Source: Streptomyces sp. TS71-3
Lineage (GTDB): Bacteria > Actinomycetota > Actinomycetes > Streptomycetales > Streptomycetaceae
Assembly: GCF_018327685.1 (NCBI RefSeq)
Contig: NZ_BNEL01000003.1
Location: forward strand, 3,472,001 to 3,536,000
Length of the DNA: 64,000 nt
Direction: 5' to 3'
Positions 22,089 through 32,362 of the stretch are shown here, piece by piece. How positions within the stretch are numbered: position 1 is the first letter of the stretch; each line of letters begins with the position of its first letter. The translations under genes and the position numbers were made by a program. The notes beneath the pieces are model-generated. The model ran no database searches. It was not told the DNA's origin and was given only the letters and a program-made list of their open reading frames with translations.

Positions 22089-23372
22089 ATGGCTCAGCCT
22101 GATGCCTCAGCCGACCTCCTCGCCCCGGCCCCCTGGGTCGAGGAGCGCGGCGCAAAGATCCGCATCACGGCCGTACGCACCTTCCTGACAGCCCCGCACG
22201 GCTGCCCCCACCTCATCGTCCGCATCGAGACCAACGACCCCGGCCTCTACGGCCTCGGCTGCGCCAGCGACCCGCAGCGCACCCTCGCCGTCCGCTCGGT
22301 CCTCGACGACTACGTGGCCCCGATGCTCGCCGGGCGCGACCCCGACGACATCGAGGACATCCACCGGCTCCTGCTCAACAGCGCCTACTGGCGCGGCGGA
22401 TCGGTCACGGGCAACGCCCTCGGCGGTGTCGACGTCGCCCTGTGGGACCTCAAGGCCAAGCGGCTCGGGGCCCCGCTGTACTCGCTGTTCGGCGGCCGGG
22501 TCCGCACCGGCGCCGCTGCCTACACCCACGTCGACGGCGCCGACGCCGAGGAGATCGCCGACAAGGTCGCGGCGGCCCGCGAGCACGGCTTCGACCACGT
22601 CCGCATCCAGGCCGCCGTGCCCGGCGCGGACACCTACGGAAGCCACGGCGCCGCCGTCGACCCGGCCGCCGTCCGTGCCCGCCGGGTGCCCTGGGACTCC
22701 GCCGGCTACCTGCGTACCGTCCCGGCCGTCCTGGCACGCGTGCGCGAGATCGCCGGCGACGGCGTGGAGCTCCTGCACGACGTGCACGAGCGCCTCGACC
22801 CCCGGCAGGCGCGGGAGTTCCTGCGCCGGGTCGCCGACGTCGGCCTGTACTTCGTCGAGGACCTGCTCGCGCCCGAGGACGCCGGGCACTTCGCGCGGCT
22901 GCACGCCGTCTCGCCCGTGCCGCTCGCGGTCGGGGAACTCTTCCACGACACCGCGCAGTTCCTGCCCCTGCTGGACGGCCCCGCCATCGACTTCGCCCGG
23001 ATCCGGATCCCGACGCTCGGCGGCCTCACCCCGGCCCGCAAGATCGCCGCGGTGTGCGAGCTGCGCGGCGTCCGGCTCGCGCCGCACGGCCCCGCCGACG
23101 TCAGCCCCATCGCCCAGGCCGCGACCCTGGCCCTCGACATCAGCAGCCACGCCTTCGGCGTCCAGGAGGCCGCCACCTTCAAGCTCGCCGCCCACGACGT
23201 CTACCCCGGCACGATCGTGCCCCAAGGCGGCTCCCTCGTCCCCCGCGAGACCCCGGGCCACGGCGTCGACTTCGACGAGACCGCGGCCCGCCGCCACCCC
23301 GTGCCCGAGCCCCTCGGGCACGACCGCTGGGCCCTGCTGCGCAACACCGATGGGAGTGTGCAACGACCGTGA
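22089..23372 (+). CDS. Mannonate dehydratase-like enolase-superfamily enzyme
   Basis: A 427-residue member of the mandelate racemase/enolase superfamily close to D-mannonate dehydratase (ManD/RspA). Metal ligands are seen in LLHDVHE, YFVEDLL and LAVGELFHD, and SHAFGVQE and the Trp near the end fit ManD-like enzymes. It would dehydrate a sugar acid to a 2-keto-3-deoxy acid; whether mannonate, gluconate or another acid cannot be told. The ATG at 22089 has GGGAG nearby. A TTGACA box at 22020-22025 followed by AT-rich sequence lies in the 161-bp leader. It starts a three-gene operon. Confidence 0.85.
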   Translation: MAQPDASADLLAPAPWVEERGAKIRITAVRTFLTAPHGCPHLIVRIETNDPGLYGLGCASDPQRTLAVRSVLDDYVAPMLAGRDPDDIEDIHRLLLNSAYWRGGSVTGNALGGVDVALWDLKAKRLGAPLYSLFGGRVRTGAAAYTHVDGADAEEIADKVAAAREHGFDHVRIQAAVPGADTYGSHGAAVDPAAVRARRVPWDSAGYLRTVPAVLARVREIAGDGVELLHDVHERLDPRQAREFLRRVADVGLYFVEDLLAPEDAGHFARLHAVSPVPLAVGELFHDTAQFLPLLDGPAIDFARIRIPTLGGLTPARKIAAVCELRGVRLAPHGPADVSPIAQAATLALDISSHAFGVQEAATFKLAAHDVYPGTIVPQGGSLVPRETPGHGVDFDETAARRHPVPEPLGHDRWALLRNTDGSVQRP

Positions 23373-24028: not shown

Positions 24029-25116
24029 AGCCGCTGCGCGTCGGCATGGTGGGCGCGGGGAAGATCAGCGGCGCCTACCTGGACACCCTGGCCCGGCTGG
24101 ACAACGTGCGCCTGACCGCCGTCACGGACCTCGACCCCGGCCGCGCCGAGCAGGCCGCCCTGAAGGCCGGCGGGGAGGTCGCCGTCGCCCCGTCCGTCGT
24201 CGACCTCGCCGGCCGGGACGACGTGGACGCCGTCCTCAACCTCACGATCCCGGCCGCGCACGCCTCGGTCGCGCTCACCGCGCTCTCGGCCGGCAAGCAC
24301 GTCTACGGCGAGAAGCCCCTCACGGCGAACCGCGGCGAGGCCGAGTCCGTGCTGGCCGCCGCCCGCGCCGGCGGCCTGCGGGTCGGCTGCGCCCCGGACA
24401 CCGTCCTCGGCACCGGCACCCAGACCGCCCGCAAGGCCGTCGATGACGGGCTCATCGGCGCGCCCGTCGCCGCCACCGCGTTCATGACGACCCCCGGCCA
24501 CGAGGCCTGGCACCCCGACCCGGAGTTCTACTACCAGCCAGGCGGCGGCCCGCTGCTCGACATGGGCCCCTACTACCTCTCCGCGCTGGTGCACCTGCTC
24601 GGCCCGGTCGCCCGCGTCACCGGCGCCGCGTCCCGGCCGCGTGCGGAGCGGGCGATCGGCAGCGGCCCGCGCGCCGGCGAGGTCTTCCCGGTCGAGGTCG
24701 ACACGCACGTCACGGGCGTCCTCGAGCACGCGGGCGGGGCGCTGTCCACCCTCGTGATGAGCTTCGACATCCACGCCGCACGGCTGCCGAGGATCGAGGT
24801 GCACGGCACGGAGGCCTCCCTCTCGGTCCCCGACCCCAACCGCTTCGACGGCCCCGTGGAGCTGTACCGGCAGGGCGTCTGGCAGGAGTTGCCGGTGTCG
24901 GCCGGCTACCCCGAGGGCGGCCGGGGCACCGGGCTCGCCGACCTCGCCGCGGCCCTGGCCGAGGGCCGCCCGCACCGCGCCTCGGCTGAACTCGCCGGGC
25001 ACGTCCTCGACGTGATGCTCACGCTGCTCGACTCCGCCCACCAGGGCGCCGCACTTGCGGTGCACAGCACCTGCGAGCGCCCCGCGCCCGTGGTGAACGC
25101 CGCGGCGACGCCGTAG
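24013..25116 (+). CDS. Gfo/Idh/MocA oxidoreductase
   Basis: A 367-residue NAD(P)-dependent dehydrogenase with Rossmann motif GAGKISGAY (about residues 13-21), the EKP motif in YGEKPLT (about 99-105), and DMGPYYLSAL holding the usual active-site region. GTG 24013 has GAGGGGA upstream and overlaps the ThuA gene by 16 nt; GTG 24025 would give a GTGA overlap and is an alternative. The pair with ThuA resembles ThuAB-type keto-glycoside systems. It ends the operon before a strong hairpin. Confidence 0.87.
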   Translation: MGEPVKPLRVGMVGAGKISGAYLDTLARLDNVRLTAVTDLDPGRAEQAALKAGGEVAVAPSVVDLAGRDDVDAVLNLTIPAAHASVALTALSAGKHVYGEKPLTANRGEAESVLAAARAGGLRVGCAPDTVLGTGTQTARKAVDDGLIGAPVAATAFMTTPGHEAWHPDPEFYYQPGGGPLLDMGPYYLSALVHLLGPVARVTGAASRPRAERAIGSGPRAGEVFPVEVDTHVTGVLEHAGGALSTLVMSFDIHAARLPRIEVHGTEASLSVPDPNRFDGPVELYRQGVWQELPVSAGYPEGGRGTGLADLAAALAEGRPHRASAELAGHVLDVMLTLLDSAHQGAALAVHSTCERPAPVVNAAATP

Positions 25117-25163
25117 CCGGCGCGGCCCGGACTGGCCGCCCGCGAAAGGCACCGCACAGATAG

Positions 25164-25195
25164 GGCGGCAGGAAGAAGAGGGCCTTCCTGCCGCC
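25164..25195 (+). terminator. Strong terminator after the dehydratase-ThuA-oxidoreductase operon
   Basis: GGCGGCAGGAAG (25164-25175) and CTTCCTGCCGCC (25184-25195) form a perfect 12-bp stem with an 8-nt loop, followed by TTCTGCTG. It lies 47 bases after the oxidoreductase stop and separates this operon from the GH38-like gene. Confidence 0.85.
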
Positions 25196-25320
25196 TTCTG
25201 CTGCCCGGAACACGTCACTTGAATTAATTGACGAACTCGACAGAAAGTGGTCTGCAATTCGGCTGACAATGCATCGGACGCCCCTGACCACCAGCGAGAA
25301 GATGGAAGGCGCGCAAGACG

Positions 25321-25349
25321 TTGACTTGATAACACACTTGGTTTTACAT
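25321..25349 (+). promoter_or_regulatory. Promoter of the GH38-like/ROK operon
   Basis: TTGACT (25321-25326) and TTACAT (25344-25349) are 17 bp apart, 33 bp before the GH38-like start. The surrounding 25205-25350 is much richer in A+T than the genes and holds an AATTAATT palindrome at 25222-25229, a possible regulator site. Confidence 0.5.
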
Positions 25350-25381
25350 GTCGGTGACCCGCTGGACAGGGAGGGCCGCCG

Positions 25382-28300
25382 ATGCACGACCGGAGAGATT
25401 CCGGCGAGGAACGCATCACCGCATTCCTTGCCGAACGACTACGGCCCGCGCTGTATCCGCAGCGGGTGCCCCTGGACGTCAGCGCCTGGCACATCCCGGG
25501 GGAGCCCGTCCCCGCCGGCATCGCCCTGCGGGCCTCGTACGCCCCCTTCGCGGTGGGCGACCCCTGGGGCAGCCCCTGGTCCACCACCTGGTTCCGCGTC
25601 CACGCCGCGGTGCCGGAGCGCTGGGCGGGCCGCCGTGTCGACCTCCTCGTCGACCTCGGCGGCACGGACGGCGCCGCGGGCGGTCCCGCGGCTCTCGTCC
25701 ACGACGCGCACGGCACACCCCTCAACGGCCTGCACCCGGGGGCGGACCCGCTTCCCGTGCGGCTCAGGGCGCGCGGCGGTGAGCAGGTGCGCCTGCTGAT
25801 CGAGGCCGCCGCGGACCCGCCCATCGACCCGGACCGCGGCACCGGGCTCCTTCACGGCGACCCGGCCACCGCGGGCGACACTCCGCTGTACCGGTTGCGC
25901 AGCGCCGACCTCGCCGTCCGCGACGACGGCGTGTGGCGGCTGCTGCACGACATGGCGGCGCTGGCCGACCTGATGCGGGCCCTGCCCGCCGGCAGCGCCC
26001 GGAGGCAGGAGCTGAGCCACGCCCTGGAGCGCGCCATGGACGCCGTCGACCCGGCGGCCGCGGCCCGCACCGCGTCCCGCGCACGCGAACGGCTCGGCCC
26101 GGTGCTCGCCCGCCGCGCCGGCGACTCGGCGGGCAGCCTCGCCGTCGTCGGCCGGGCGCCCGTGGGCATGGGGCTGCGCCCCGCGCACGAGGCCGTACGC
26201 GCCTGCGCGCGGGCCTTCAGCACCCTGGCGACCCTCGCCGCGGAGTATCCCGAACTGGTCGTGGCGGTCCCCGGGGCCCAGCACCACGCCTGGATGAAGG
26301 AGCACCAGCCGCATGTCTTCGAGCGCATCCGCAAGGCGGTCGCCGACGGCAACTGGGCGCCCGTGGGGGGCATGTGGGTACCGGCGGACACCGAGCTCGC
26401 CGGGGGCGAGTCGCTGGTGCGGCAGTTCGTGCACGGCCGCCGCTTCCTCCGCGACGAGCTGGGCGCCGACAGCGACGGCGTCTGGCTGCCCGACGCGATG
26501 GGCGCCTCCCCGGCGCTCCCGCAGCTCGCCCGGCTGGCCGGCGCCACCTGGCTGCTGGCGCGCCGTCCGGCCCCGGACCACGCGCCCGCCCCGCCGCACC
26601 ACACCTTCCGCTGGGAGGGCATCGACGGCACCGCCCTCCTCACCCATCTCGCGCCCGGCGCGCCCGAGGACGGCGCACCCGCCCTCACGGGGGCCGGCGC
26701 GTCCGCTCCCACCCCCGCCGGCCCCGCCACCCGTGCCCTGCTTCCCGCCGGCCGCCCGGCCGCCGGTCCCGACCGCGCCCTGCTGGAGCGCACCCGCCGC
26801 CTCGCCGACCTCGACGGAGCCCCGAAGGTGACGATGCAGCACCCGGCGGCGTTCTTCCGCACCGCCCGCGACGAGCACCCCGACAGCCCCGTCGTGCGCG
26901 GCGCACTCGACCTGGCACCGCACTGCGGCGGCTTCACCAGCCAGGCCCGCACCAAGCGCGCCAACCGGCTGAGCGAGTCACTGCTGCACGAGGCGGAACT
27001 CTGGTCCGCCACCGCGGCGGTGCGCCTCGGCATCGGCTACCCCCACGACGAACTCGACGCGCTGTGGAAGCAGGTGCTGGCCCAGCAGAGCGACGACGTC
27101 CTCTCCGGAGCCGGCATCGCCTGGGTGCACGCCGACGCGGAGGCCGCGCACCGGCTGGCGCAGCGCAGGCTCGAACGGCTGGTACGGCGCGCCGCGGGCG
27201 AGCCGGACGGCACCGCCGTGCTCAACCCCGCCCCGGTGCCGCGCCGCGAGGTCGTCGTGCTGGACGCACCCGCCGGCCCCGTCCCCGGCACCGCGCAGCT
27301 GATGCCCGACGGGCGCCTCGCCGTCCTCGCCGAGGCGCCCGCGCTCGGCGCCGGCCCCGCGGGCATCCCCCTCGGCGGCACGGCCCCCGTCAGCGTCCGC
27401 CCCGCGGCCGGCGGCGGGCACCTGCTCGACAACGCCCTGCTGCGGGTGCACATCGGCCCGGACGGCCTGGTGCGCTCCCTGGTCGACCTCGCCACCGGGC
27501 GCGACGCCATCGCCCCCGGCGCCGCGGGCAACCTCCTCCAGCTCCACCGCGAGGGCACCGGCCGCACCGGAGCCCGCGACCTGGACCCCCGCCCCGGCAC
27601 GATCCGCGATCTGGACGGCGCGGCCCGCGTCGCCGTGTACGCGCACGGCCCGCTGCTGGCCACGGTGCGGGTGTCGCGCGTCACCGGACGGTCCACCGTC
27701 GTGCAGGACCTCACGCTCACCGCCGGCAGCCGCGCCCTGAGCATCGGCACCGACGTCGACTGGCGCGAGCGGGACACCGTCCTCACGTGCGCCTGGCCGC
27801 TGGACGTGCACGCCGAACAGAGCCGCGCCGGCATCCAGTTCGGGCACGTGACCCACCCCGTCCACGAGGACGGCGACGGGGACCCGGCGCGGCACCAGGC
27901 GACCGCGCACGGCTGGATCCACCTCGGCGAGCACGGCTGGGGCGTGGCCCTGGCCACCGACACGGTGCACGGCCACGACGTCGCCCGCCGCACCCGCGCC
28001 GACGGCGGCACCACCACCGTGCTGCGCACCACCCTCCTGCGCGCGCCCGGCCGACCCGACCCGCACGCCGACCGCGGACCCCAGCGGTTCCGGCACGCCC
28101 TGGTGCCCGCCGCGGACACCGCGGACGCCCGCGACGCGGGACAGGTCCTGTGCCATCCCCTGCGCCCCGGCCCGGCCGGCCCGCCCGGCCCGCCCCTGGT
28201 CGCCGTCGACAACCCGGACGTCGTGATCGACACGGTCAAGCTCGCCGACGATCGCAGCGGTGACGTCGTCGTGCGCCTCCATGAGTCGCGCGGCGGCCGG

Positions 28301-28492
28301 GCGGCCGTACGGCTCGCCGTCGGGTGCGCCGCCACGGCCGTGCACGAGACGGACCTGCTGGAGGAGCGGAGCGCCGAGCACCCGCTCAGGGGCGGCGGGG
28401 TGCGGCTCACGCTGCGGCCCTTCCAGATCCTCACGCTGCGTCTGGTGCGCGGCCCCGTCCCCTGCGACGCGCCGGAGGGCCACGGTGCCTGA
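25382..28492 (+). CDS. GH38 alpha-mannosidase homologue with degenerate active site
   Basis: A 1036-residue cytoplasmic protein with the full GH38 layout: N-terminal beta domain, catalytic barrel (about 250-450), three-helix middle domain (about 510-600, QARTKRANRLSES) and C-terminal beta domains. Catalytic-domain landmarks such as AWMKEHQPHVFERI, PVGGMWV, RQFVHGRRF and WLPDAMGAS (Asp371) are kept. However, the family GHAHID motif reads GRAPVG (residues 257-262), the Gly-rich GDGGGGP region reads AGRPAAGPD, and the conserved QFHDILPG reads QSDDVLSG (570-576). From what is known of GH38, three of four zinc ligands are gone while the nucleophile-type Asp371 stays. A catalytically inactive, perhaps sugar-sensing, protein is inferred. 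It overlaps the ROK gene by 8 nt. Confidence 0.8.
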   Translation: MHDRRDSGEERITAFLAERLRPALYPQRVPLDVSAWHIPGEPVPAGIALRASYAPFAVGDPWGSPWSTTWFRVHAAVPERWAGRRVDLLVDLGGTDGAAGGPAALVHDAHGTPLNGLHPGADPLPVRLRARGGEQVRLLIEAAADPPIDPDRGTGLLHGDPATAGDTPLYRLRSADLAVRDDGVWRLLHDMAALADLMRALPAGSARRQELSHALERAMDAVDPAAAARTASRARERLGPVLARRAGDSAGSLAVVGRAPVGMGLRPAHEAVRACARAFSTLATLAAEYPELVVAVPGAQHHAWMKEHQPHVFERIRKAVADGNWAPVGGMWVPADTELAGGESLVRQFVHGRRFLRDELGADSDGVWLPDAMGASPALPQLARLAGATWLLARRPAPDHAPAPPHHTFRWEGIDGTALLTHLAPGAPEDGAPALTGAGASAPTPAGPATRALLPAGRPAAGPDRALLERTRRLADLDGAPKVTMQHPAAFFRTARDEHPDSPVVRGALDLAPHCGGFTSQARTKRANRLSESLLHEAELWSATAAVRLGIGYPHDELDALWKQVLAQQSDDVLSGAGIAWVHADAEAAHRLAQRRLERLVRRAAGEPDGTAVLNPAPVPRREVVVLDAPAGPVPGTAQLMPDGRLAVLAEAPALGAGPAGIPLGGTAPVSVRPAAGGGHLLDNALLRVHIGPDGLVRSLVDLATGRDAIAPGAAGNLLQLHREGTGRTGARDLDPRPGTIRDLDGAARVAVYAHGPLLATVRVSRVTGRSTVVQDLTLTAGSRALSIGTDVDWRERDTVLTCAWPLDVHAEQSRAGIQFGHVTHPVHEDGDGDPARHQATAHGWIHLGEHGWGVALATDTVHGHDVARRTRADGGTTTVLRTTLLRAPGRPDPHADRGPQRFRHALVPAADTADARDAGQVLCHPLRPGPAGPPGPPLVAVDNPDVVIDTVKLADDRSGDVVVRLHESRGGRAAVRLAVGCAATAVHETDLLEERSAEHPLRGGGVRLTLRPFQILTLRLVRGPVPCDAPEGHGA

Positions 28493-30788
28493 CACGCAGC
28501 AGGCCGGCGGCCTTCCGCCCGAGACCTACGCCCGGTTGCGCCGCTGGGCGGAGCAGGACGGGCCCATGACCACCCGGGCGCGCGTCGTCCTGCTCGCCGC
28601 GCAGGGGCTGCGGGACGCCGAGATATCCCGCCGCCTCGGGGTGTCCCGGCAGACCGTGGGCACCTGGCGGCACCGCTGGCAGAGCGCGGGCCTCGCCGGG
28701 CTGCGGCAGCGGCCCCGCACCGGACGCCCCGTCACCGTCGACGAGGCGGAGGTCGTCACCCGCGCCCTTCTCGCACCCGGCGGCAGCGGCGCCAGTCGGG
28801 CCATCGCCCGCGAAGTGGGCCTCTCGCACGCCACGGTCGCCGCCATCCGGCGCCGCTGGCGGCTCGCCGCCGACGAGTTCCCCACGCCGCACGTCCCGAC
28901 CAGGCCCCCGCTGCCAGGCGCCGACATCTGGGTGATGGGCCTCTACGTCGACCAGGACCGCGCCGTGCTGCTCACCGGAACCCGGCCTGGCGCATCGGGC
29001 CCGGCCCCGGCCGCCTCGGTGATCGGCGAGGACCTGCTCGACGGCCTCGACCGCGCCCTGGACGCGGTCCGCGCCGCCGCCCCCGGCACCGCCGCCGCGG
29101 CCGTCGGAGACCAGGCCCTGGCGCGGTACCTCGCCGCGGCCGCCGAGCACCATCCGGACATCGCCCTGCACGCCGTGACTCTGTGGGATGCAGCCCAGGA
29201 CCCGGACGGCGGGCCGCACCGGGGGACCCGCGGCCGGACGAGGACCGCTGGGCCCGCACCGACCGATACGGAGCCGGGGCCCACACGCGCCGCCACCGAA
29301 CCCGAGCCCGCCGCGGTGGGCAAGCTGACCTTCCACGACCTGCCCGCCCGCTCCACCTGGCGCGGCTTCCTGCACGCCATGATCGCCCTCGACAGCACCA
29401 GCCACCCCGAGTCCTCCCGGCGGGTCTACCTCGACCTGCTCAGCGCCCTGGAGCGGCACGGCACGGCGCGCACCACCGGCCCGTTCGCGCCGGTGTGCTG
29501 GCTGCGCGAGAACGTCGCCGAGCACCTGCGCGCGGCCCGCGCGGGCCAGGCCCCGGCGCACCAGGGCTCGTTCAGCGGCGTCAACCAGATCGACCTGGGC
29601 TCGTTCAACGAGTGCGTGGTCATCGAGTCCGTACGGCTGTCCGGGAGCATCACCCGCGGCGAGATCGCCCACCGCACCGGGCTCACCCAGCAGTCGGTCT
29701 CCCGGATCGCCCGTTCGCTGCTGGACCGCGGCATCCTCGTGGAGGACGCGCAGCGCCGCGCCACCTCCGGCAAGCCGCGCACCCCGATGCGGCTGTGCGG
29801 CACCGCCGCCCACGCGCTCGGCCTGCACATCGACCCCGAAGTGCTCACGGCCGTCGTCATCGACCTGGACGGCTCGCTGATCTGCACATGCACCCGGCCG
29901 GTGGGCGCCGGCATCGAACCCGGCGCGTTCGTGGACCAGGCGGTCGCCCTCGCCCGGGAGACCCTGGAGAAGGCCCGCGGCGCGGTGCGCGAGGACGGCT
30001 TCCTCGGCATCGGCGTGGCGGTGCCGGGGCCGGTGGACATCGCCTCGGGCACGGTGCTCGCCCCGCCGCTGCTCTCCGCCTGGGACGACCTGCCGCTGCT
30101 GTACCTCCTCAAGGACCACTTCCCGTGCCCGGTCATCATCGAGAAGGACTCCCTGGCGGCGGCCGCGGGGGAGCGGTGGATCGGCCGGGACCGCAGGGCG
30201 CGCGACTTCGCCTACCTCTACCTCGGCACCGGCGTCGGCTCCGGGCTCTACCTCAACGGCGACCTGTACCGCGGGGTCAGCGCCAACGCGGGGGAGTTCG
30301 GGCAGCTGTGCGCGCTGACGCTGGGCCGGGTGGGCGCGGACGGTCGGCCCGAGATCCTGCCGGAGTGCAATCCGCCGGTCTCGGTCAGCGACCTCGCCGC
30401 CCGCGGCGGGCTGCACACCCCGGAGGCGGCGCTCGGGAGCACGGCCGCCTACCGGGCAGTGGGCCGTGCGGCGGCCGCCGGCGACCCGGCCGCGGTGGCG
30501 GCGCTGCGGGAGGTGGCGGGCGCGGTGGGGCGCGGCGCGCTCGGCCTCGTCGACCTGCTGGACATCGACCTGATCGTGCTCGGCGGGCCGTTCTTCACCG
30601 AGGACGTCGCGGACTTCTACCTGGACGAGATCGGGCGCACCGTCAACGAGTTCCCCACCGCGCGACGCCTGCGGCGGGTGGAGGTGGAGCGCTCCGTCCT
30701 CAGCGCGGAGGCGGCCGCGGTGGGTGCGGCGTCCACGATCTTCCATGCGACGTTCACCCCGCGGCTGAGGGGCCGGGCGCAGGGCTGA
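28485..30788 (+). CDS. Chimeric regulator: transposase-like N-terminus fused to ROK repressor
   Basis: A 767-residue protein. Residues about 35-75 are an IS630-type helix-turn-helix (ISRRLGVSRQTVGTWRHRW), a second HTH follows near 100-115, and about 145-355 resembles an IS630-family DDE region (WVMGLYVDQDRAVLL, then WLRENVAEHL and QGSFSGVNQ) without a readable catalytic triad. About 375-430 is a MarR-like HTH (GEIAHRTGLTQQSVSRIA), and 444-760 is a ROK sugar-kinase-like domain. The ROK zinc motif CxCGxxGCxE is not visible; the region reads GEFGQLCALTLG. GTG 28485 follows GGAGGG. It is translationally coupled to the GH38-like gene and probably regulates this or a neighbouring sugar operon. Confidence 0.78.
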   Translation: MPDTQQAGGLPPETYARLRRWAEQDGPMTTRARVVLLAAQGLRDAEISRRLGVSRQTVGTWRHRWQSAGLAGLRQRPRTGRPVTVDEAEVVTRALLAPGGSGASRAIAREVGLSHATVAAIRRRWRLAADEFPTPHVPTRPPLPGADIWVMGLYVDQDRAVLLTGTRPGASGPAPAASVIGEDLLDGLDRALDAVRAAAPGTAAAAVGDQALARYLAAAAEHHPDIALHAVTLWDAAQDPDGGPHRGTRGRTRTAGPAPTDTEPGPTRAATEPEPAAVGKLTFHDLPARSTWRGFLHAMIALDSTSHPESSRRVYLDLLSALERHGTARTTGPFAPVCWLRENVAEHLRAARAGQAPAHQGSFSGVNQIDLGSFNECVVIESVRLSGSITRGEIAHRTGLTQQSVSRIARSLLDRGILVEDAQRRATSGKPRTPMRLCGTAAHALGLHIDPEVLTAVVIDLDGSLICTCTRPVGAGIEPGAFVDQAVALARETLEKARGAVREDGFLGIGVAVPGPVDIASGTVLAPPLLSAWDDLPLLYLLKDHFPCPVIIEKDSLAAAAGERWIGRDRRARDFAYLYLGTGVGSGLYLNGDLYRGVSANAGEFGQLCALTLGRVGADGRPEILPECNPPVSVSDLAARGGLHTPEAALGSTAAYRAVGRAAAAGDPAAVAALREVAGAVGRGALGLVDLLDIDLIVLGGPFFTEDVADFYLDEIGRTVNEFPTARRLRRVEVERSVLSAEAAAVGAASTIFHATFTPRLRGRAQG

Positions 30789-31096: not shown

Positions 31097-32362
31097 CTAC
31101 ACCACGGGCTTCGTGGGCCGGGTCTGCGTCCGCGGGATCTGGCCCTTGAGCATCCGGCCGCCATCCGCGGTGAGCCGCAGGTAGTAGTCGGACGAGCAGG
31201 CCGTACCGTCCTCGTCGAGCGCCCGGTACCCGGAGCCCGCCGGCACGTCCGCGGCGGTGGCCGCGGTCTTGGCGATCTGGTTGCTCTCGTTGTACTCGTC
31301 GAACATCGAGATGTAGAAGCCGGCGACCTTGATGCCCACCAGGTTGTAGAACTGGCGCCACATCAGGTCGCCGTGCCCCCGGTGCCCAGACTGGAGGTCA
31401 CCGGGGATCACGCACGGCTGGTAGTCGATGCCGTGCGCGTCGCAGTCCGCCTTGTCCGGGGTGTTGAGGTCCCGCAGGAACTGGTCGGCCCCGCCCACGT
31501 CGGAGATCCGTCCCACCATCCACGGCGAGATCATGTGGAAGCCGTGGTACACGTCCGAGAAGCCGGGCCGGGAGTCGTCCGTGCCGGCGCGCCAGTGCGT
31601 GGGCACTCCGCCGATCAGGTAGACGCCCTGGCCCTTGAACCAGTTGACGACGTCCAGGCACTGGTCCGGCGTGAAGGGGCGCCCGGGGTCGTTGAACCCG
31701 AAGCCCCAGATGCACACCACCGGCTTGCCGTTCTGCCTCGCGTACGCGCTGGAGGCGGTGTGCGCCTTCATCTTCGACGTCCAGTCGTCCTTGATCTGCG
31801 ACTGCATGTCGGTCCAGCCGGTGACGTCGTACATGATGTAGAACTTCCGGCCGTGCCTCTCCGCGGCCGTGCGCACCTTCTGCGCCATCGCGTCCCGGGT
31901 GGGCCCCTCGGGGCTGAACGGGTTGAAGCGCTGCAGGGCCGCGGTGTCGCAGCCGTTCTCCTGCATCCAGCGGAAGTGGGTGTCCACCGTCTGGTCGTCC
32001 CAGGAGGAGAACAGCGCCGCGCGCCCTCCGCCGTTCAGGTTGCCGTAGTCGGTCGGGTAGACCTTCTGGTACTCGCTGATGTCCGGCCAGGACGTGATGC
32101 CGGAGTTGGACGGCGACGGGGCATGGCTCATGTCCTTGCTCCAGTGCCACCATCCGTTGATCGGGGCGCCGTCACCGCCGCAGGCGAACCAGCCCTGGTA
32201 GCCGACGGTGATCTTCCCGACGACGTCCCCTGCGGGGCTCGCGCCGGGCGATGCGGTGCGCGGCGCGGGAGCCGCGCCGGCCTGGCCGGCGGCCACGGCG
32301 CCGGCGACGCCCGCGGAGGCGCCCAGTGCGGATGCCAGTAAAGTGCGACGATTCATGCTCAT
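31097..32362 (-). CDS. Secreted glycoside hydrolase family 71/99-like protein
   Basis: A 421-residue exported protein. The N-terminus has a Tat-type signal (NRRTLLASALG, then a hydrophobic stretch ending near residue 31, AGA-AP). The mature part, starting GKITVGYQGWFACGGDG and including NGWWHWSKDM and FYISMFDEYNE, matches the GH71/99-like proteins of actinobacteria. GH71 enzymes cleave alpha-1,3-glucan and GH99 enzymes alpha-mannosides, so the target is uncertain. The neighbouring fungal-wall operon favours an alpha-glucan or mannan of fungal walls. It has its own promoter at 32501-32529 and a GGAGG ribosome site. Confidence 0.75.
   Translation of the reverse strand: MSMNRRTLLASALGASAGVAGAVAAGQAGAAPAPRTASPGASPAGDVVGKITVGYQGWFACGGDGAPINGWWHWSKDMSHAPSPSNSGITSWPDISEYQKVYPTDYGNLNGGGRAALFSSWDDQTVDTHFRWMQENGCDTAALQRFNPFSPEGPTRDAMAQKVRTAAERHGRKFYIMYDVTGWTDMQSQIKDDWTSKMKAHTASSAYARQNGKPVVCIWGFGFNDPGRPFTPDQCLDVVNWFKGQGVYLIGGVPTHWRAGTDDSRPGFSDVYHGFHMISPWMVGRISDVGGADQFLRDLNTPDKADCDAHGIDYQPCVIPGDLQSGHRGHGDLMWRQFYNLVGIKVAGFYISMFDEYNESNQIAKTAATAADVPAGSGYRALDEDGTACSSDYYLRLTADGGRMLKGQIPRTQTRPTKPVV

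Follow-up and report, generated by a model that had tools for sequence, protein, structure and literature searches.

ROK-type transcriptional regulators such as Mlc, NagC and Lmo0178, and CsnR, RokB and Rok7B7 of Streptomyces, place a MarR-type winged helix before a ROK domain. Passages of PMC4856308 call CsnR a repressor and assign to Mlc and NagC the control of sugar uptake and use. Transposases of the IS630 family (NF033545) follow another plan, in which a pair of helix-turn-helix (HTH) domains precedes a catalytic DDE_3 domain (PF13358). In this report, we describe a gene of Streptomyces sp. TS71-3 in which the two plans meet in a single reading frame. It lies at 28485..30788 (plus strand) of a 64,000-nucleotide stretch of contig NZ_BNEL01000003.1 (positions 3,472,001 to 3,536,000), hereafter called the window, to which all coordinates refer. 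The C-terminal half of its product has the winged helix and ROK domain of ROK regulators, and the gene shares with theirs a neighbourhood of sugar genes. Unlike them, the protein has about 360 additional N-terminal residues derived from a transposase, lacks the zinc site and the GH histidine, and is accompanied by a second candidate operator. With IS630 transposases it shares the HTH pair, followed by remnants that align collinearly with the catalytic domain; unlike them, it has no DDE triad, is fused to a ROK regulator, sits in a fixed gene context and, judging from profile alignment, is probably missing the stretches after the first and second catalytic strands.

In animals, new transcription factors are known to arise by transposase capture. 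The vertebrate host-transposase fusions (Cosby et al. 2021, as cited in PMC8700633) likewise join a transposase-derived part to a host regulatory protein; the present case is distinguished by being bacterial, by its ROK sensor partner and by keeping the remains of a whole transposase. The published bacterial example that we met is TldR, a group of nuclease-dead TnpB repressors (Wiegand 2024, as cited in PMC13418256). There, too, a bacterial transposon protein was inactivated, made into a regulator and linked to a host gene, but TldR is RNA-guided and RuvC-based, whereas the window protein would be protein-guided, DDE/HTH-based and fused to ROK. The part of the open-access literature that was searched yielded no work on a ROK/IS630 combination and, among the papers listed, no bacterial transcription factor made from a DDE transposase. 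Here, an insertion-sequence DDE transposase seems to have turned into one half of a classical sugar repressor and to have been retained in Streptomyces, Actinacidiphila, Streptacidiphilus, Catenulispora and Actinospica. We propose, with a probability of about 0.7, that a ROK regulator captured a whole IS630 transposase, and that the ROK half represses through one DNA element (B) while the transposase half anchors the protein at another (A).

The original prediction, made from the letters of the DNA, was of a domesticated transposase fused to a ROK protein: an IS630-like region of 360 residues, then a MarR-type HTH and a ROK domain, in one uninterrupted frame behind a ribosome site. It named domain searches, structure prediction and a search for the same fusion elsewhere as checks. 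The frame is indeed open from the GTG at 28485 through its stop, 767 codons (767 amino acids) without a break, with GGAGG shortly upstream of the GTG, which overlaps the stop of the preceding gene (25382-28492), a member of glycoside hydrolase family 38 (GH38); the two open reading frames (ORFs) share 8 bp. Pfam places HTH_29, HTH_28 and HTH_23 on residues 30-89 (E 3e-16 to 2e-14), MarR_2 (PF12802) on 386-419 (E 9e-9, 35.8 bits against a cut-off of 27) and ROK (PF00480) on 504-750 (E 8e-30, 104.8 bits against a curated cut-off of 22.9), which confirms the predicted C-terminal half. The second N-terminal HTH is weaker (HTH_32, 31.7 bits against a cut-off of 33.7). The NCBIfam model of IS630 transposases, NF033545, matches with E 2.4e-17; its 63.3 bits fall below the cut-off of 100 and cover only model positions 2-60 of 299. 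The IS630 character foreseen for the first 360 residues is thus plain in the HTH pair, and in the remainder it emerges from profile-profile comparison with controls. The same genome carries another fused gene built in the same way (789 amino acids), whose ROK part is 48% identical.

The fusion is a recurrent family rather than a one-off. A homologue search with residues 1-365, in which the 8000 candidates with the most shared words were scored, returned at least 135 matching proteins; 119 of the 120 homologues listed, the window's own included, carry both HTH models and PF00480, the exception (P0053) being without PF00480. GTDB genomes gave 65 loci, 58 of which (L040-L097) form the fused family, while seven (L098-L104) lie outside it and match through IS630-type HTHs. 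Among the 58, both halves share one frame in 46; eight end at a contig end, in two the frame breaks inside ROK, and two have no ROK in frame. A genus sample gave matches at 1e-60 in 14 of 121 genomes, some of them through unfused ROKs only. Two divergent subfamilies both carry the fusion. We refer to the window's group as clade I, to a second Streptomyces subfamily, the type of the window genome's paralogue, as PARA, and to the proteins of Catenulispora, Actinospica, Streptacidiphilus and Actinacidiphila oryziradicis as clade III. The search for the fusion elsewhere thus succeeded, and it disposes of the idea that a sequencing or assembly error joined two genes: 46 one-frame loci from many assemblies, with eight more running off contig ends and the fusion common to two subfamilies, refute it, and we regard it as practically dismissed, although split copies (L066, and P0128 and P0168 of Actinacidiphila yeochonensis) do carry the halves in separate ORFs. 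At L066 (L066:9785-12438) the gene is broken into two frames within the middle domain; there, as with the two A. yeochonensis proteins, either sequencing error or real fission may be responsible.

The HTH pair (residues 11-128; 28515..28868, plus strand) is of the IS630/paired type, as shown by the Pfam and NCBIfam matches, by the helices of the AlphaFold2 model and by weak structural matches to paired domains (Pax), Mos1, IstA and sigma region 4. Its presence places the N-terminal half with the IS630 family, and in a tree with 12 IS630 sequences the HTHs of the fused family form one clade (support 98). The ratio of nonsynonymous to synonymous substitution (dN/dS) was computed for six pairs involving five distinct relatives (L021 repeats L040). 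It was below 1 for every segment and pair: 0.10-0.27 in the HTH pair, near the 0.08-0.17 of the ROK half, and 0.27-0.67 in the middle. These values strongly suggest that the HTH pair has been retained under purifying selection.

The middle region (residues 129-346; 28869..29522, plus strand) is best described as a decayed IS630 catalytic domain. The whole N-terminal half aligns end to end with 13 IS630 transposases (hhalign local E 1e-35). Stripped of its HTHs, the middle region, as a 47-row alignment from which hhalign used 45 rows, still matches the IS630 catalytic part collinearly over 179 columns, with a score of 45.5, a probability of 88% and an E of 3.2e-6 for this one comparison. Column shuffles of the middle region (300) reached at most 20.7. 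Of 142 profiles from neighbouring frames, some of them non-coding, 135 scored no higher than 18.6; the seven above 330 were five built on fused genes and two on ROK queries, which had probably drawn in fused proteins. A smaller, 11-row alignment gave a weaker match (E 6e-4, probability 29%). All 13 IS630 sequences have the catalytic D, D and E. In the 47 family sequences, by comparison, the first column holds T, E, A, G or Q and never D, the second is always L, W or F, and the third is never E. The framework residues H284, P287, W292 and W339 align with IS630 counterparts. These results support descent of the middle region from an IS630 catalytic domain that has lost its triad, and a reading of the N-terminal half as a dead IS630-family transposase, domesticated as had been predicted.

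The C-terminal half (residues 364-767; 29574..30785, plus strand) comprises a MarR-type winged helix at about 373-422 and a ROK domain, with Lmo0178 and Mlc as relatives in the PDB. The CxCGxxGC zinc motif and its accompanying GH histidine are common in ROK proteins, though not universal. The original prediction suspected that the motif was missing; in the window protein it is, and the neighbouring histidine is replaced by Q. The other 57 sequences of the fused family that were tabulated (three truncated on their N-terminal side) all lack the motif too; where the histidine would stand they have Q, E or A, and they carry an EC[NA]P motif. The loss is not peculiar to the fusion, however. Unfused sister ROKs of about 420 amino acids, 49-57% identical and found in Kribbella, Microbacterium, Glycomyces and others, also lack the site and resemble the fused family in these features, as do all 18 that were tabulated, and fusion is therefore not its cause. 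Among other unfused ROK sequences, 14 of 23 keep the motif.

Two strongly conserved DNA elements lie upstream of the GH38 gene in the interval 25117-25381, which the original prediction had proposed for the mapping of DNA binding. Element B (25320..25349, plus strand; GTTGACTTGATAACACACTTGGTTTTACAT) has by eye a -35/-10-like core, with an imperfect palindrome in a spacer that is nearly as conserved as the hexamers. The form GTTGAC.TGATAACAC....GGTTTTACAT stands upstream of GH38 in 29 of 29 clade I regions, the window included, with at most one substitution; it found no match, even with four substitutions allowed, upstream of 32 other GH38 genes, those of PARA and clade III loci. It occurs once per genome in all 12 genome handles scanned (11 distinct genomes), where a reversed-B control matched nowhere. 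PARA loci carry a variant, TTGAC...CAATCCATTGGATTTACAT and similar, at 18 sites, and eight of nine clade III loci carry TAACACTCTTGG..TTACAT, L071 being without it; against a longer B matrix, L071 and L072 score poorly. Element A (25213..25268, unstranded) is an inverted pair of arms of about 20 bp, TGTCA(N)4AATT...CC, with an outer span of 56 bp. It is present in all 28 clade I promoters examined, with a span of exactly 56 bp in 27 and 61 bp in L067; the bare outer TGTCA/TGACA pair occurs in 77 of 5319 200-bp intervals drawn from these loci, a count that takes in the promoters themselves. In the window, the centre of A lies about 80 bp before B. Among the sites examined, A is confined to clade I apart from L077, and its geometry is that of a presumptive dimeric site.

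Both elements seem to go with the regulator. Five clade I loci (L042, L056, L064, L118 and L119) have no GH38 gene in the examined stretch, and there A and B stand immediately upstream of the fused gene; the span of A is 56 bp in L042 and 54 bp in each of the remaining four. The elements thus follow the regulator and not GH38. Further, B is present at two of three loci with unfused ROKs (L125 and L126), and no TGTCA/TGACA pair lies within 230 bp upstream of the B sites there; this difference points to the ROK half as the reader of B. On the simplest reading, B would be the repressor site of a ROK dimer, and the transposase-derived HTH pair is the best candidate for the reader of A.

We envisage the following sequence of events. 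A ROK regulator would have gained an entire IS630-family transposase as its N-terminal half, and the captured protein would then have shed the catalytic residues together with parts of the RNase H-like core while retaining the paired HTH domains. The dimeric MarR-type helices of the ROK half most likely bind B, within the spacer of the promoter that would drive GH38 and the regulator, such that the protein would repress both GH38 and its own gene. Repression would be lifted when a mannoside-related or sugar-acid ligand occupies the ROK domain. For the transposase-derived HTH pair, the most likely targets are the two arms of A, where it would anchor or loop the repressor upstream; the transposase half would thus lend the ROK protein additional DNA-binding capacity. 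PARA and clade III proteins, which are fused as well, must then read something other than A. A more speculative extension, which we consider rather improbable, is that the dead transposase is the second DNA-reading head of a two-operator switch whose distal operator, A, is derived from the ends of a transposon. Its arms start with TGTC, as do the ends of three related IS630 elements. The likeness is weak: of 2000 shuffles, 48 attain it for one of the two arm consensuses and 296 for the other. The average over all arms lies above every one of 200 shuffles, the arms not being independent of one another. Since each clade I genome scanned has a single B site and the regulator has a clear neighbour gene, the rewiring of an operator by a dead transposase is directly testable here.

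Several observations weigh against the proposal, beginning with the ancestry of the N-terminal half. Neither Pfam nor NCBIfam has a model that detects a DDE domain in the middle region of the window protein or of 46 relatives, each scanned singly, and the AlphaFold model of this domain, whose mean pLDDT (predicted local distance difference test) is 82, as is that of the model with the HTH helices, has by itself no fold match in the PDB. The HTHs, by comparison, do have weak structural matches. Moreover, the place of the first catalytic column could be off by a position or two, with E there in eight of 47 sequences and a D adjoining it in one, and a D stands two residues after the aligned second column in 21 of 47, the window included. 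One could thus suppose that a ROK protein captured an IS630 HTH pair next to an unrelated domain, which would make this a DNA-binding fusion rather than a whole domesticated transposase. The lack of DDE and fold matches is in keeping with this idea, but the collinear 179-column match, far above shuffles and other profiles, and the four framework residues on their IS630 counterparts make it improbable. The missing fold match probably reflects the loss of the strands after the first D and of the helix after the second, to judge from gaps in the profile alignment. The number of captures is also at issue. In two ROK trees, unfused relatives fall among the fused proteins (support 94 in one and 96 in the other), and in the latter the starred branches force two changes; the N-terminal half was therefore lost once or gained twice. 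A single fused clade is not rejected when the fused sequences are held together (approximately unbiased test, p 0.065), and one capture rather than two would be favoured by the HTH tree and by the decay that the middle domains have in common.

The assignment of A meets its own difficulties. The A pair is upstream of none of the 18 PARA-type B-variant sites and of only one of eight clade III B sites examined (L077), though both groups of proteins are fused, and the link between A and the transposase half consequently comes from clade I. The comparison with unfused relatives, for its part, draws on three loci, in one of which (L127, on an 8.6-kb contig) B was not found. The absence of A from the PARA and most of the clade III sites would be expected if A belonged to another regulator and the transposase half served oligomerisation or protein contacts instead of DNA binding, as would the fact that the N-terminal half is dispensable for B, which unfused relatives share. 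This is the most credible of the alternatives, though we still hold it doubtful; the strong purifying selection on the HTH residues, and the company that A keeps with B before the fused gene even where GH38 is not seen, speak against it. An activator or dual regulator is less credible again. Such a protein would bind A upstream and recruit RNA polymerase, leaving B mainly as core promoter; in the window A does lie 113-169 bp upstream of the GH38 start, beyond the -35-like TTGACT, and because B overlaps promoter-like hexamers, part of its conservation may be that of a promoter. Yet the spacer of B is conserved nearly like the hexamers, the B core recurs before unfused ROK relatives as expected of a repressor site, and the known ROK proteins cited at the outset include the repressor CsnR and the sugar-control proteins Mlc and NagC (PMC4856308). 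We therefore prefer repression through B by the ROK half with anchoring at A by the transposase half.

The neighbourhood is that of a stable host locus, with dN/dS below 1 throughout and a GH38 gene within the examined flanks of 54 of the 58 family loci (the exceptions are L042, L056, L064 and L075). We estimate the chance of a GH38 gene in a random 20-kb stretch at about 1.4%. The window genome has seven GH38 genes, two of which adjoin its two fused regulators. The window's GH38 gene (25382..28492, plus strand; PF01074, PF09261, PF07748 and PF17677) encodes an alpha-mannosidase-like protein and is the likely target and co-transcribed partner of the regulator. Upstream of it, domain searches and synteny identify as members of a conserved cluster a Gfo/Idh/MocA oxidoreductase gene (24130..25116, plus strand) and an MR_MLE, ManD-like dehydratase gene (22089..23372, plus strand; ManD model 344.9 bits, below the cut-off of 550). 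Many clade I clusters run in the order ManD-like gene, small ORF, Gfo/Idh/MocA gene, promoter, GH38, regulator. At the three unfused ROK loci (L125, L126 and L127), a ManD-like neighbour is present in every case and no GH38 match was found, which suggests a sugar-acid operon as the older target. Convergent to the regulator lies a gene (31097..32362, minus strand) for an unclassified, secreted-looking protein with, by eye, a twin-arginine translocation (Tat)-like signal, which database scans of Pfam, NCBIfam and the PDB left unmatched at the thresholds used; its relatives occur near the fused gene even in the GH38-less loci L042, L056, L064, L118 and L119.

Two further arrangements came to light. 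A second, unfused ROK gene, 33-37% identical, lies near GH38 genes at L072:12171-14546, L077, L078, L079, L082:15453-16646 and L084:13172-14548, in Streptacidiphilus, Actinacidiphila oryziradicis and two Streptomyces; its product has no zinc motif and has G at the histidine position. At L101:8702-10102, an IS630-type HTH half is in frame with what looks by eye like a CO-dehydrogenase medium-subunit-like domain, possibly another transposase fusion, and the ten-member protein cluster P0161 has a Pfam mix (PF00941 and PF03450) that corresponds to this layout.

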